A stretch of 46,091 nucleotides of DNA from Mollicutes bacterium (GTDB lineage Bacteria; Bacillota_I; Bacilli_A; Izemoplasmatales; Izemoplasmataceae). Below are positions 27,472 to 34,725 of this stretch, piece by piece. The stretch is taken from the NCBI GenBank assembly GCA_003553945.1, contig PWEL01000014.1:1-46091 (forward strand), in the 5' to 3' direction. Each line of letters starts with the position of its first letter. Within the stretch, counting starts at the first letter, position 1. Position numbers and translations under genes: made by a program. The notes under the pieces are model-generated. The model was not told the DNA's origin and ran no database searches. It saw nothing but the letters and a program-made list of their open reading frames with translations.

Positions 27472-27512
27472 CACGATGTATAAAAAATACACTACAAATC
27501 GCACCTCGCCTT

Positions 27513-27521
27513 TGGTATAAT
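27513..27521 (+). promoter_or_regulatory. Extended -10 promoter of parE
   Basis: TGGTATAAT, 33 nt before the parE ATG, with a poor -35 region. It is divergent from the plsY promoter about 45 bp away. Confidence 0.65.
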
Positions 27522-27554: not shown

Positions 27555-29474
27555 ATGAATGAATATTACACCGCCGAATCCATCGAAGTACTGGAAGAGC
27601 TTGAAGCCGTGCGCAAGCGCCCGGGCATGTATATCGGTTCGACCGATGCCCGGGGTCTTCATCATCTCGTCTGGGAGATCGTCGACAACGCCATCGACGA
27701 AGCGCTTGCGGGCTACGGCAACGAGATCTATGTGACCATCAGGGAGGACAACTCCGTCGTGGTCGAGGACTTCGGCCGCGGCATGCCCATCGAAGAGCAT
27801 GAGACGGGCAGGAACACTATCGAGGTCATCTATTCCCGCCTTCATGCCGGCGGGAAGTTCTCCACCCGCGGCGGCTACAAGGTCGCGGGCGGACTGCACG
27901 GCGTGGGCGCCAGCGTGGTCAACGCGCTGAGCGAGTTTCTTGATGTGACCGTGACCCGCGAGGGAGAGCAGTACAACATGACCTTCAAGAACGGCGGCGC
28001 TGAAGTCACCCCGCTCAAAAAGATCGGCAAGCGCCGACGTCGCGGGACGAAAGTGTGGTTCAAGCCGGACCCGAAAGTCTTCTCGACCACTGTCTTCAAC
28101 TACCAGACCATCGCCGAGCGTCTGAGGGAGAGCGCCTTTTTGATCAAGGAGCTCAAGATCGTCCTCGAGGACGAGCGCTCGAAACAGCGCGAGACCTTTC
28201 AATACAATGAAGGCATCCTCTCCTATATCGGTTATCTGAACAGCCAGAAGAAGGCCATCCACGACCCGATATTCTTTCAGGGGACGTTCGAGGACATCCG
28301 CGTCGAGGTAGCGTTCCAGTTCACCAAGTCCTACACCGACCAGGTGCTCTCCTTCGTCAACAATGTGCGCACGAGAGATGGCGGGAGCCATGAGACCGGA
28401 TTCAAGACCGCTTTCACCAAAATATTCAATGAATACGCCCAGAAAGTCCAGTCCGTCAAGAACGGCAAGCTCGAGGGCGCCGACATAAGGGAGGGACTCA
28501 CCGCTATCGTATCGCTTCGCGTGCCCGAGCATCTCCTCCAGTTCGAGGGGCAGACCAAGAACAAGCTCGGGACTGCCGAGGCCCGCACCGCCGTCGAGAC
28601 AACGGTCAGCGAGAAGATGACCTATTTCTTCAACGAGAACCCGAAACTCGCCAGGACCCTGATCGACCGCGCCATCCGGGCCCAGGAAGCTAGGGAAGCC
28701 GCGCGCAAGGCGCGCGAGGAGGCGCGGATGGAGCGCAAGAACAAGAAGAAGGAGCCGGTGCTTTCAGGCAAGCTCGCCCCCGCCTCTTCCAAAGACACCG
28801 ACAAGCGCGAGCTCTACCTCGTCGAGGGCGACAGCGCGGGAGGCAGCGCCAAGCAGGGCCGCGACCGGCGCTATCAGGCCATCCTTCCCTTGAGGGGCAA
28901 GGTCATCAACACCGAGCGAGCCCGCATCGAGGATGTGCTCAAGAATGAAGAGATCAATACCATCATCCCCACCATCGGCGCCGGGCTGAGCAGCGATTTC
29001 GACTTAAGCGCCTGCAACTACAAGCGCATCATCATCATGACCGACGCCGACACGGACGGCGCCCATATACAGGTGCTTCTGCTCACCTTTTTCTTCCGCT
29101 ATATGCGCAAGCTGATCGAGGCCGGCAAGGTCTTTATCGCCCTGCCGCCGCTCTACAAGATCTCCTTCAAGCAAAGTAAGAAGCAGCGCACTGTCTATGC
29201 CTGGAGCGATGAAGAGCTCCAGGAGCTCCTCGAGCACAAGAAGGACGTCTCCATCCAGCGCTACAAGGGCCTCGGGGAGATGAACGCCGAACAGCTCTAC
29301 GAGACGACGATGAACCCCGAGACGCGCACGCTCCTCAAGGTCACCATCGACGACCTCGCCGACACGGAGAAGCGCATCAAGATCCTGATGGGCGACCAGG
29401 TCGAGCCCAGGCGCGACTGGATCGAATCCAACGTGACCTTCACCCAGGAAGACCACTTCGAGATAAAGGACTGA
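27555..29474 (+). CDS. parE: DNA topoisomerase IV subunit B (ParE)
   Basis: 639-residue GyrB-family ATPase subunit that decatenates chromosomes together with ParC. The GHKL ATPase has [24 protein letters not shown] and [15 protein letters not shown]; the TOPRIM domain has [17 protein letters not shown] and [10 protein letters not shown]. The ParE identity, rather than GyrB, rests on [23 protein letters not shown]-type context and on parC directly downstream. The SD (AAGGA, 27541-27545) is weak. First gene of parE-parC-Fic-like-argS. Confidence 0.95.
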
Positions 29475-29478
29475 GACC

Positions 29479-32004
29479 ATGGCCCAAAAACTTCAGGACG
29501 TCATCGACAAGTTCATAGAAGGCAAGGTGATGGATGAGAATCTCGAGGAGATCGTCAGCGACCGCTTCAGCCGCTACTCGAAATACATCATCCAGGACCG
29601 CGCCCTCCCCGATGTCCGCGACGGGCTGAAGCCCGTCCAGCGCCGCATCCTGTACGCAATGCACAACCTCGGCCTCACACAGGATAAACCCTATAAGAAA
29701 AGCGCCCGCATCGTCGGCGATGTCATCGGCAAGTACCATCCTCACGGCGACATCAGCGTCTATGAGGCGCTTGTGAGACTGAGCCAGGATTTCAAGATGC
29801 GCACGCCGCTCATCGACATGCACGGCAACAACGGCTCCATCGACGGCGACAGCGCCGCGGCCATGCGCTACACGGAAGCGCGCATGAGCCGCCACAGCGA
29901 GCATCTGCTTGCGGATATCGACAAGCATACCGTCGATTACATCCCCAACTTCGACGATGAGGAATACGAGCCCATCGTCCTGCCCGCGAGGTTCCCCAAT
30001 GTGCTCATCAACGGCGCCACCGGAATCTCGGCGGGCTATGCGACCGAGATTCCCCCGCATAATCTAGAAGAGATCATCAAGGGCGTTATCGAGCGCATCG
30101 AGAACCCGAAGAGCACGGTCGAGACCATGATGGAGACCATCAAGGGTCCGGATTTCCCCACCGGCGGCATCGTGCAGGGCGAGGAGGGGATCAGGGAGGC
30201 CTTCGAGACCGGCAAGGGCCGGATCATCATAAAATCCCGCACGGAAGTCGACGACAACCGCATCATCGTAACCGAGATCCCTTATGAAGTCAATAAGGCC
30301 TCCCTCGTCCGCGCCATCGACGAGATCCGCTTGAAGCGGCAGGTCGACGGCATCAGGGAGGTCCGTGACGAATCCAACAAGGAAGGCCTCCGCATCGTCA
30401 TCGACGTGAAGAAGTCCTTCGACCCGGTTGCGATCGAGAACTTCCTGCACAAGAAGACCGACCTCACAAAGTCCTATTCCTACAACATGGTCGCGATCAG
30501 TAACAAGCGTCCGGAGACGATGGGGCTTTTAGCGATCTTCGACGCCTATATCTATCATCAGAAGGAGGTCGTGACCAACCGCTCCAACTTCGACCTCCGC
30601 AAGGCCGAGAAACGCCTGCACATCGTCGAGGGCATCATCCGCATGGTCGATGTGCTCGATGAGGTCATCAAGGCCATCCGCGCTTCAAAAAGCAAATCCG
30701 ACGCCCGCAAGCGGCTCATCGACAATTTCTCCTTCACAGAAGCGCAGGCGGAAGCCATCCTCACCCTGCAGCTCTACAGGCTCTCACATACGGATTTGAA
30801 GGCGCTCAAGGACGAGGAGGCCTCTCTCAAGGACAGGATCGAGCATCTGAAGAACATCCTGCAGAACGAGGATGTCCTCGAAAAGGAGATCAAGCGCGAG
30901 CTCCGCGAGGTCATCAAGGCCTCGAAGGATCCGCGGCGCACGGAGATCGAAGCCTCGATCGAACGCATAAAGGTCGCCGAAGAGGAGCTCGTCGAGCGCG
31001 AGAACGTCATGACGGCCGTGACGAAGGAGGGCTATGTCCGCCACAGCTCCCTCCGCAGCTACAAAGCCACCGCTCAGACCGAACTCAAAGAGAGCGACGC
31101 CTTCCTCTTCATCGAAGAACGTTCGAACATGGACACCCTGCTCATCTTCACCGACAAGGGGAGCTATGTCTACCTTCCGATCTTCAAGATCCCCACATGC
31201 CGCTGGAGGGAGCTCGGCACGCATCTCAACCACATCGTCCCCATCGCCGATGATGAGCGGATCATCCATGTAGAGGCCGTCCCACAGTTCGACGAGGACG
31301 CCGGATACCTCCTCTTCACGATGAAGGACAACTTCGTCAAGCTCACGCCAATCAAGGAGTTCGATGTGCTGCGCCACAATAAAGCCTTCAAGGCGCTTTC
31401 CCTCCGCAAAGGCGACGAAGTGCGCCATATAAGCCGCGTCGACGATGCGGAAAGCGAGGCGCTCACCGTCTCGGAAGACGGCGAGGCCCTCCGCTATCAT
31501 CTCAGCGAGATTCCCATAACCAGCACCAATGCCAAGGGCGTCAAGGCCGCGAATCTGAAGGACGGCGACACCCTCGCCGCGAGCATCCCGCTCAAAGATT
31601 ACCACGACCTGCTCGTGATCACTTCGAGGGGGACCATCAAGCGTCTCTCCCCCGATGCGATCACCCGCAAGCGGCGCACCCTCAAGGGTGAGCGTCTCTT
31701 CAAGCAGATCAGGCGCAACCCCTACCGCGTCAAGGACCTCGAGCTCATGAACGCCGCCCAATACAAAAAACGCGCGACGGTGCATGTCGTCACCGAGAAG
31801 AAGAACATCGAGCTGAGCGCCTTCACCATCAAGCGTGAGACCAGCGACGCCGGCAAGAAGCATATCCGCACCAAGGACGGCGAGCCCATCGCTATGCGCA
31901 TCGACCCCGTCGAACTCGAAGAGGACGAGGTCATCGCGCCGCTTTCGACCTACGAACAAGCGCCCCGCATTAAAGAAACGCAGCAGACGCTCTTCGACGA
32001 TTGA
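29479..32004 (+). CDS. parC: DNA topoisomerase IV subunit A (ParC)
   Basis: 841-residue breakage-reunion subunit. The winged-helix domain carries KYHPHGD (85-91) and the catalytic tyrosine Y131 in AMRYTEAR; a coiled-coil gate and a C-terminal beta-pinwheel domain follow. At the main quinolone site (S80 of S. aureus GrlA or E. coli ParC, right after HPHGD) this protein has I92, while the neighbouring acidic site is E96. Serine is the usual wild-type residue, and S80I is a common resistance mutation in E. coli ParC. It starts 4 nt after parE. Confidence 0.96.
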
Positions 32005-32013
32005 GGTGAGTGC

Positions 32014-33078
32014 ATGCACTGTCTTGAGAACATCGATACGATGAGAATCCCCGGCGACATCATCCGCCGCTATCTCGATCTGTATCGCTTCATCGGCCGC
32101 AACAAGGACATGATGACGATCATCGACGATGATTTCTCCGTCTACGTGCAGGAGACCATCCAGACCGACGCCTACTATCTCAGCCACTACCTTTCGCTCG
32201 CTGTCACGGAGACGCGGCGCAAGCGGCTCATCAAGAAGGATATCAAGCCGCACAACAAACAGGAGCGTCTCCTTAAGAACATCAAGCAGGCTCTCCTCAA
32301 GGTCCACCGCGAGACGGAGACGTTCGACCTCCGCGCCCGCGAGCTCTACGACCTTCTCCTCTTCCTATACGAGGATGTCTCCCCCGCATCGTCGCTCACC
32401 TATGAACAAGTGAGCGACGACATGCCCACCACGCTCCTCTCGAGCGGAAAGAAGACGCGGCGGGAGGCGCTCGAGACGCTCTGCGAGCGCTACAATGAAC
32501 TCAAGCGCCGCGACATGCTTGAACCAGGCTTCCTCGCGAGCAGCTTCTACGTCGACCTCGCCAATCTGAAGCCGTTCAAGGCCCACAACGAGACCATCGC
32601 CCTGTTCGCGCTCTACATCCTTCTCCTCAGCAACGACTACGCGGCGTTCCATCTGAGCAGTTTCTTTGAAAAGATCCACAAGCGCGGTCAGGATTTCTCC
32701 CAGCACCTCATCGACGCATCCCACAACTGGCGGGAGGGGCTCAGCGACACCATCGGGCTGCATCGCTTCCTTCTCGATATCGCGATCGAAGCCTACAAGG
32801 ACGTCCATGAACTGCTCAGGAACTATACCTACGACCGTCAGCTCAATAAGTCCGATTATATCGAGAACACCATCTATCGCCTCAAGGAGGTATTCACCAA
32901 GGACGACATACGCCGCGTGCACCCCACCGTCTCGGATTCGACCATCGACCGGACATTGAGGCGCCTCCGTGACGAGAAGAAGATCCGCCCGCTCGGACGC
33001 GGGCGCAGCGCAAAATGGATGAAGCTCGTCCACAGGGAGGAAAAACCCATCCACGAACAACTCAATCTCAAGCTCTAA
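32014..33078 (+). CDS. Degenerate Fic-fold protein with C-terminal winged helix
   Basis: 354-residue protein. Its middle part (about 105-240) follows the helical pattern of Fic AMP-transferases, including FYVDLANLKPFKAHNETIAL at the active-site loop. The catalytic motif HPFx(D/E)GN(G/K)R is reduced to KPFKAHNET (186-194): Pro, Phe and Asn remain but the catalytic His, the acidic residue, the glycines and the Arg are gone, so AMPylation is unlikely. Residues 280-340 look like a winged helix (STIDRTLRRLRDEKKIRPLG). It lies 9 nt after parC with SD GAGGTGA, and 12 nt before argS, so it is co-expressed with topoisomerase IV. Function unknown; the fold call is from pattern only. Confidence 0.6.
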   Translation: MHCLENIDTMRIPGDIIRRYLDLYRFIGRNKDMMTIIDDDFSVYVQETIQTDAYYLSHYLSLAVTETRRKRLIKKDIKPHNKQERLLKNIKQALLKVHRETETFDLRARELYDLLLFLYEDVSPASSLTYEQVSDDMPTTLLSSGKKTRREALETLCERYNELKRRDMLEPGFLASSFYVDLANLKPFKAHNETIALFALYILLLSNDYAAFHLSSFFEKIHKRGQDFSQHLIDASHNWREGLSDTIGLHRFLLDIAIEAYKDVHELLRNYTYDRQLNKSDYIENTIYRLKEVFTKDDIRRVHPTVSDSTIDRTLRRLRDEKKIRPLGRGRSAKWMKLVHREEKPIHEQLNLKL

Positions 33079-33090
33079 GAAGGTGAAACC

Positions 33091-34725
33091 GTGAAGCACA
33101 TCGAAGAAAGGCTGAAACGTCTGATTCTCGGCGCTCTTAAAGACGCCTACGGCATCAGCGTCGACGCCGTCCATATCGAGACCCCCGCCGACAAGCGCCA
33201 CGGCGATTACGCGACGAATATCGCCATGACGCTCGCGAAACGTCTGCAAAGCAATCCCAGGGACATCGCGGCGAACATCAAGGCCGCGCTCGCTGATGAG
33301 GGCATGTTCGACGCAATCGACATCGCCGGCCCCGGCTTCATCAATTTCTATCTGGACAAAACGCTTTATTACGACACGCTCCGCGACATCCTCAAAAAGC
33401 GGGAGTCCTTCGGGGACGGAGAGGACAAGGGCGTCCACATCAATCTCGAATACGTGAGCGCCAACCCCACCGGCATCCTGCATGTCGGCCATGCCCGCGG
33501 CGCCGCCGCCGGCGACTCCCTCGCCCGTCTTCTCAGAAAGGCCGGCTACAAAGTGACCCGGGAATTCTATGTGAACGACGGCGGCAATCAGATCATGAAC
33601 CTTGCCAGAAGCGTCGAAGCGAGGTATTTCGAGCTCTTCGGCGAAGAGAAGCCCTTTCCTGAGGACGGCTATAGAGGCGGGGAGATCATCGACATCGCGA
33701 AGACGATGCGCGAGCGCTACGGGGACAGATTCCTCCATGAGGACGGTATCGATAGCTTCCGCGAGGAGAGCGTCGCCGAACTCCTCAAGGGGCTCAAACG
33801 CGACCTCGACGCCTTCGGAGTCACCTTCGACGTCTTCTACAGCGAGAAATCCCTCTATGAAACGGGCGCCGTAGAAGAAACGCGCGAAGCGCTAAAAGCG
33901 AAGGGCTACACCTATGAAAAAGAGGGGGCCCTCTTTCTGAGGACGACGGCCTTCGGCGACGAGAAGGACCGCGTCATCGTCAAGAGCGACGGCACCTACA
34001 CCTATCTCCTCCCGGACATCGCCTATCACCGGGAGAAGCTCTCAAGGGGCTTCGATGCGCTCATCGACATCCTCGGCGCCGACCATCACGGCTACGTCCC
34101 GCGCCTTCAGGCGGCGCTCGAGATGTTCACGGAGGAAAGGCGCCTTGAAGTGCTGATCCTTCAGCTCGTGAAAGTGCTCCAAAACGGCGAGGAGGTCAAG
34201 ATGAGCAAGCGCAGCGGCAGGACCATCACGCTCAGAGACCTCATCGAGGAGGTCGGCAGCGACGCAATCAGGTATTTCTTCGCCCGCCACAGCCTCAACA
34301 CCCATATGGACCTGGACTTGGACCTCGCCATCAAGCAGACGAACGAGAATCCGGTCTATTACGCCCAGTATGCGCATGCGCGCATCAGAAGCGTCTTTGA
34401 AAAGGCCGACAATGAGGGCTATGCCTACACCGACGATATCGACACCTTCGAACACCTCGACGACGAGAGGGTCCACGACCTCCTCGCCGCGCTCGGCGCC
34501 TATCCTTCGCTCATCGAGCACGCCGCGGCGACGCGCAGCTTCCACCGCATCACGCAGTTCATCCACCGGCTCGCCCAGAAACTCCACGCCTTCTACAGCC
34601 ACATCGTCATCCTCGATGAGAACGTCCGTGCGCGGAGCGAGAAACTCCTTCTGTTAGAGGCGGTGCGGATTGTGCTCAAGGATGCCTTGAATCTGATCGG
34701 CGTCTCGGCGCCCGAGAAGATGTGA
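33091..34725 (+). CDS. argS: Arginyl-tRNA synthetase
   Basis: 544-residue class I synthetase. It has the ArgRS N-terminal Add-1 domain, the HIGH-type motif HVGH in NPTGILHVGHARGAA, the KMSK-type motif KMSKRSGRTITL and the C-terminal DALR anticodon-binding domain. GTG start at 33091 with AAGGTGA just upstream; no better ATG exists. It closes the parE-parC-Fic-like-argS unit. Confidence 0.96.
   Translation: MKHIEERLKRLILGALKDAYGISVDAVHIETPADKRHGDYATNIAMTLAKRLQSNPRDIAANIKAALADEGMFDAIDIAGPGFINFYLDKTLYYDTLRDILKKRESFGDGEDKGVHINLEYVSANPTGILHVGHARGAAAGDSLARLLRKAGYKVTREFYVNDGGNQIMNLARSVEARYFELFGEEKPFPEDGYRGGEIIDIAKTMRERYGDRFLHEDGIDSFREESVAELLKGLKRDLDAFGVTFDVFYSEKSLYETGAVEETREALKAKGYTYEKEGALFLRTTAFGDEKDRVIVKSDGTYTYLLPDIAYHREKLSRGFDALIDILGADHHGYVPRLQAALEMFTEERRLEVLILQLVKVLQNGEEVKMSKRSGRTITLRDLIEEVGSDAIRYFFARHSLNTHMDLDLDLAIKQTNENPVYYAQYAHARIRSVFEKADNEGYAYTDDIDTFEHLDDERVHDLLAALGAYPSLIEHAAATRSFHRITQFIHRLAQKLHAFYSHIVILDENVRARSEKLLLLEAVRIVLKDALNLIGVSAPEKM

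Follow-up and report, generated by a model that had tools for sequence, protein, structure and literature searches.

The window, by which we mean the whole stretch of 46,091 nucleotides of Mollicutes bacterium DNA analysed here, carries the two topoisomerase IV genes, followed by a gene coding for a protein of 354 amino acids. FicX is the name we give to the clade of Fic proteins of wall-less bacteria, apparently devoid of catalytic activity, that includes this protein. The features needed for what follows are these:

27489..27498, + strand: ACACTACAAA, candidate operator in the parE promoter, 17 nt 5' of TATAAT.
27516..27521, + strand: TATAAT, putative -10 element of the parE promoter, as read from the sequence.
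27555..29474, + strand: parE, first gene of the operon, 639 aa.
29479..32004, + strand: parC, immediately 5' of FicX, 841 aa.
31981..31995, + strand: tail of ParC, QQTLF, resembling a clamp-binding peptide.
32014..33078, + strand: coding sequence of FicX, 354 aa, ATG start; Fic domain predicted to be dead, winged helix and short tail.
32569..32595, + strand: KPFKAHNET, residues 186-194, the degenerate form of the Fic motif HPFx(D/E)GN(G/K)R (column counts over 94 orthologs).
32848..33027, + strand: modelled winged helix, residues 279-338, the best conserved part of the FicX family.
33058..33075, + strand: tail hexapeptide QLNLKL, residues 349-354, resembling a sliding-clamp-binding peptide.
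33091..34725, + strand: argS, 12 nt 3' of FicX, a conserved neighbour only among near relatives.

The stop of parC, at 32004, lies 9 nt before the start of FicX, and 12 nt separate the end of FicX from the start of argS at 33091; these ORF coordinates agree with a preliminary description of the locus, which had placed the gene between parC and argS, 9 nt from parC. Judging from this spacing, parC and FicX would share one transcript. Full-length orthologs without internal stops are present in most relatives, so that, on comparative grounds, the reading frame is neither a chance ORF nor a decaying pseudogene. Of the 101 relatives, 87 have a match, three of these only to the weaker, active kind of Fic protein. 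The close relatives of the window include 'Mollicutes bacterium' MAGs; among the relatives, we take two genomes as Izemoplasma zrk13 (G027) and Hujiaoplasma nucleasis zrk29 (G052), while a third (G176) is presumably Acholeplasma laidlawii PG-8A. Carriers of FicX thus named include Izemoplasma zrk13 and A. laidlawii.

The fold of the protein comes out of sequence comparison and modelling alike. A phmmer search retrieved PDB entry 8uqu_A, a Fido protein from Bordetella (E=1.6e-11), with KPFKAHNET of the query aligned opposite HPFPDGNGR of the target. The AlphaFold2 model, computed with 59 orthologs, has a mean pLDDT of 88, and its comparison with the Fic fold of 8uqu gives Z 30.1 and an rmsd of 1.9 Å over 251 residues. 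In Pfam and NCBIfam the window protein matches no family above cut-off, and PF02661 matches 13 of the 59 orthologs, at best with 4e-06. The model places FicX in the Fic/Fido fold, as the preliminary description had proposed, and the degeneration of the motif HPFx(D/E)GN(G/K)R to KPFKAHNET, which it had also put forward, is indeed found in the window protein.

What is left of the active site can be followed over 94 FicX orthologs. The catalytic histidine is lost in 92 and kept in two, both arginines of GNGRxxR are found in none, and the glycine residues of the motif are largely replaced. The residues that take the place of histidine, glycine and both arginines differ from family to family. The asparagine of the motif is retained in 89 orthologs, in most of them with an acidic residue next to it. 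At the N-terminus, the inhibitory glutamate of (S/T)xxxE(G/N) is present in none of the 94, as against seven of nine active paralogs. FicX has therefore neither the motif HPFx(D/E)GN(G/K)R of active AMP-transferases nor the (S/T)xxxE(G/N) motif of class II auto-inhibited Fic proteins. Loss of the catalytic and of the auto-inhibitory motif together is the pattern expected of a pseudoenzyme, and from these residues FicX is expected to be catalytically dead. It does not look like part of a FicTA module either: no small partner gene recurs at the FicX loci examined, where the neighbours are parC and argS, or else a udk-like kinase, tsf, recJ and PHP genes.

Divergent Fic and AvrB-like proteins show new activities on the Fic scaffold, and FicX might likewise still be an enzyme, with a novel type of activity. 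Retention of the asparagine, followed in most orthologs by the acidic residue, speaks for this idea. One would expect an active site in use to stay invariant, however, and the family-variable residues found in place of histidine, glycine and both arginines argue against a new activity, as does the disappearance of the inhibitory glutamate from all orthologs; we deem it very unlikely.

The best conserved part of the protein lies elsewhere. The mean column conservation over the 94 orthologs is 0.73 in the winged helix, as against 0.44 in the Fic core. Residues 266-354 display the order H-E-H-H-E-E in the model, and a structure search with this C-terminal part returned winged helices as best matches (Z 8-10), so that a winged helix added at the C-terminus, suggested before from the letters of the window, is also what the part models as on its own. 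Regulators of the Fur/PerR and LmrR types align with this segment alone (Z 8-9, with weak PerR/FUR profile matches), these scores being middling and common to many winged helices; the kind of metal-binding/dimerisation domain that such regulators possess is absent from FicX.

FicX belongs to a well-delimited set of organisms. In a class-wide profile search, among the matches listed full-length, FicX proteins score at least 222 bits and active Fic paralogs at most 154 bits. FicX was found in ten families of its class, coded here f1, f2, f3, f5, f7, f10, f12, f16, f18 and f22; none was seen in the other families sampled in the class, and a search at the level of the phylum added no family. A tree of 47 FicX proteins and nine active paralogs splits the two groups (support 100/100), and within FicX the branching follows the families. 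On the evidence of this tree FicX is one vertically inherited clade, the dead form having arisen once and descended vertically from then on. Active Fic proteins that have HPFxxGNGR and an identical order of domains are patchy in the class (L067-L073, L150, L151), and some are found in f12 genomes of 0.8-0.9 Mb without FicX. In these f12 genomes (G258, G346) the active proteins were ruled out as FicX by their intact HPFTDGNGR.

The presence of active HPFxxGNGR proteins in some relatives would suit the view that FicX is an antitoxin-like shield, protecting topoisomerase IV against active Fic toxins. Set against it are the patchiness of the active paralogs, the vertical inheritance of FicX and the lack of an adjoining toxin partner. 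Moreover, FicX is present in the window's own genome (64% complete), where no other Fic-family match, hence no active paralog, was found. This reading, offered in the preliminary description, comes out weak, and we give it hardly any credence.

The link with parC is borne out when gene order is compared among relatives, FicX lying 3' of parE-parC, as a conserved pairing, in eight families. It is the next gene 3' of parC in every f1 member with sufficient flanking sequence, in f2 and in several f18 genomes. A single gene intervenes in f3 (lipoprotein-like) and in some members of f10 (a small gene), while a TGS/uridine-kinase-like gene of about 550 aa separates parC from FicX in f12 and f16. In f7 and some members of f22, FicX is not near parC, and in f22 it is found behind a TGS/uridine-kinase-like gene. 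The latter gene, placed between parC and FicX in Acholeplasma-type families, still accompanies FicX in f22, where the two have become separated from parC (L091, L137, L141, L142).

A second feature accompanies FicX, the near-unique inverted repeat TATANTCA-N10-14-TGANTAYA. It was first noticed 5' of parE in f18, as TATANTCA-N11-TGANTATA, and then found 5' of FicX itself in f22, f7, f10, f5 and f3. Where FicX has its own promoter the repeat lies directly 5' of FicX; where FicX belongs to the parE-parC operon, it lies at the parE promoter. The f22 form is TATAGTCA-N11-TGACTATA, located in L141 74 nt before the start of FicX. In those f1 genera where parC and FicX lie some 135 nt apart, the repeat is again 5' of FicX, with TATATTCA-N14-TGACTACA in zrk13. 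In the genus of A. laidlawii, each of the six genomes has exactly one copy of the variant GATAATCA-N12-TGATTATC, which sits at the parE promoter, and the reversed control of this pattern had no match. Scored over its 14 positions, the motif reaches 13 or 14 at 25 FicX units from eight families; among the upstream regions of other genes two of 269 reach 13, both being the plsY/parE intergenic region of f18. It is f18 that supplied the motif, and the remaining families were not used to derive it. Taken together, the eight genomes whose FicX has an exact site contain 19 sites, eight of them directly 5' of FicX.

Some further observations belong here. A single operator at parE common to the whole class was considered and rejected: the repeat follows FicX, and the parE promoters of f1, f2, f3, f5 and f10 lack it. 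A motif-free scan for inverted repeats gave mostly noise in this AT-rich DNA and was informative for f12 and f18 only. In f18, a second copy of the repeat is present a few kb 3' of FicX (L263, at G186:C1:61321; L269, at G221:C82:12260), between convergent genes, where a promoter is not expected. The parE promoter of f10 has a conserved element of its own, TTTGCATAGAGTT, unlike that of other families (L087, L088, L112).

Because it is near-unique and moves with FicX rather than with parE, the repeat looks most like an operator at which a local autoregulator would act, and FicX carries the conserved winged helix. An operator-like conserved repeat, as one expects for an autoregulatory transcription factor, is found at FicX units in eight families, and this points to FicX regulating its own expression. 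The distance of the repeat to the putative promoter varies among families and would fit activation as well as repression. Two families count against autoregulation, f2 having no repeat at FicX and f16 a half-site only. Could the repeat then be the site of another regulator, with FicX merely one of the regulated genes and its winged helix doing something else? The window's genome, which has FicX without the full repeat, would fit. The near-uniqueness of the repeat in each genome tells against it, as do the persistence of the repeat with FicX when unlinked from parE and the fact that no winged-helix gene other than FicX is a constant member of the unit; we hold this explanation quite improbable.

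The window's own genus deserves separate treatment. No full inverted repeat was found in the window's genome (G000) or in G001 and G004, in all of which FicX is joined without gap to the parE-parC operon. The parE promoter there displays ACACTACAAA, which recurs with at most one mismatch in 14 of the 21 parE promoters of f1. A role as a general promoter element was rejected, since G000 has a single copy in 1.17 Mb. With the right half of the repeat, written TGACTACAAA for zrk13, it shares only ACTACAAA, and it may at a stretch be a half-site for the protein that would recognise the full repeat. That the window's genome has a different element at parE counts against autoregulation by FicX. Between 27429 and 27554, plsY and parE are divergent and their promoters stand back to back with ACACTACAAA between them; the element could act on plsY too.

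The last part of FicX is its tail. Residues 342-354 are modelled with low confidence and presumably disordered, and their final hexapeptide resembles the sliding-clamp-binding consensus QLxLF / QLxLxL (PMC4564189). A tail of either type is present in 67 of the 94 FicX proteins, as against four of 294 other genes, three of these four being ParC, in a background made of neighbouring genes and not of a proteome; shuffled FicX tails gave a mean of 2.1 of 94 and a maximum of seven. The peptides comprise QLTLF, QLSLF and QLDIF in f12, QLTIF and QLDLF in f16, QVSLF and QLNIF in f22, QLNLKL and QLDLKI in f1, and QLNFDL in f3. By sequence, most FicX proteins have what is expected of a clamp client, the motif in an accessible segment. 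The FicX proteins of f2, f7, f10 and f18 are without such a tail, which counts against a clamp link. PolC of the window's genome ends with QVSLFDM, showing that a known clamp client uses a peptide of this form there. In its form, and in its place at a disordered C-terminal end, the FicX tail resembles the clamp motifs of polymerases and of RecB (QVEMEF; PMC4564189, PMC13254535), from which it differs in being predicted only. ParC tails are of this kind as well (QQTLF, QVSLF, QQKLF and similar), also in the FicX-less families f9 and f20. Clamp-like ParC ends extend over many families (QQTLF, QVSLF, QLELF, KLSLF, QISIF; L001-L042, L082-L121, L175, L176, L178), and GyrA tails are mostly without them. 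Such ParC tails would predict a topoisomerase IV tethered to the clamp.

A rival view is that of a direct contact. As a non-catalytic partner of topoisomerase IV, FicX would bind ParE (or ParC) through the surface of its dead Fic domain and inhibit, protect or position the enzyme; FicX and ParC would reach the replisome by means of their clamp-like tails, and the winged helix would bind DNA near the fork or only autoregulate. The presence of tails on both proteins goes along with this proposal, as does operon linkage over eight families. ParE is AMPylated by active Fic proteins, and it is still bound by Fic-1 H135A, a dead mutant of a Fic type that differs from FicX (PMC7479194). The Fic core is the less conserved part of FicX, however, the gene is away from parC in f7 and some f22, and the closest solved relative of FicX is not of the FicT type. 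As a full account we find this unlikely; a direct contact with ParE/ParC is nonetheless possible, as the main rival of autoregulation or as an addition to it.

The preliminary description was right about the dead Fic domain, the winged helix and the parE-parC link, and of its three readings the evidence now favours the DNA-binding factor: conservation is far higher in the winged helix than in the Fic core, and the repeat tracks the FicX unit across families. We lean, somewhat beyond an even chance, to the view that a dead Fic protein has become a winged-helix autoregulator of its own unit, often that of topoisomerase IV, and is probably linked to the clamp. FicX, presumably dimeric, would use its winged helix to bind TATANTCA-N10-14-TGANTAYA at the promoter from which its own gene is transcribed. 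In the many lineages where this unit is parE-parC-FicX, the protein would set the level of topoisomerase IV. Its Fic core would act as a scaffold or a sensor, while in most families the flexible C-terminal tail would dock on the sliding clamp, and could tie the activity or the location of FicX to replication.

A bolder version, which we put forward as a rather doubtful conjecture, has this Fic pseudoenzyme couple the control of topoisomerase IV to replication in the entire class, binding the clamp through its tail, contacting topoisomerase IV, whose ParC has a clamp-like tail too, and repressing or activating its own unit. Decatenation capacity would then follow the replication fork. If the view of FicX taken here is right, an AMP-transferase fold would have been converted entirely into a transcriptional regulator that governs an essential topoisomerase, and would be fixed in the whole class, culturable Acholeplasma included. 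A sequence-specific operator would be at hand, the supply of topoisomerase IV would be linked to the sliding clamp, a conserved gene whose window protein matched no Pfam/NCBIfam model would have a role, and the label 'Fic family protein' would mislead when attached to genes of this type.

How does FicX stand with respect to known systems? FicT-type toxins (VbhT, Fic-1, FicY, Sa1560) AMPylate GyrB/ParE. FicX has in common with them the Fic fold and a connection with topoisomerase IV, which is genetic linkage in FicX and an enzymatic target in FicT, but it is without catalytic residues, without a FicA antitoxin partner, and has an added winged helix. It stands closest not to these small toxins but to large Fic proteins that have an inhibitory helix at the N-terminus and a wHTH at the C-terminus. 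Both 8uqu, from Bordetella, and SoFic (SO_4266; 3eqx/3zcn) combine, as FicX does, the Fic fold with an N-terminal helical part and a C-terminal winged helix over a similar length; FicX differs by the loss of HPFx(D/E)GNGR and (S/T)xxxE(G/N), by its clamp-like tail and by its conserved link with parE-parC. The literature searched, subscription papers and preprints being outside its scope, described no dead Fic clade that spans a class, goes with parE-parC and has both an operator-like repeat and a clamp-like tail, nor any clamp-binding-like tail on a Fic protein; papers that treat Fic in connection with Acholeplasma and topoisomerase IV, or clamp motifs in ParC, contained no description of the FicX system. 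Already on record are fusions of Fic with HTH domains, noted by Kinch et al. (2009), together with the suggestion that they regulate their own expression (PMC2686095). FicX shares with these fusions the Fic-HTH combination and the proposed autoregulation, and differs from them, active Fic proteins as they are, in being predicted dead, in having an operator-like repeat identified, and in a unit that includes topoisomerase IV.
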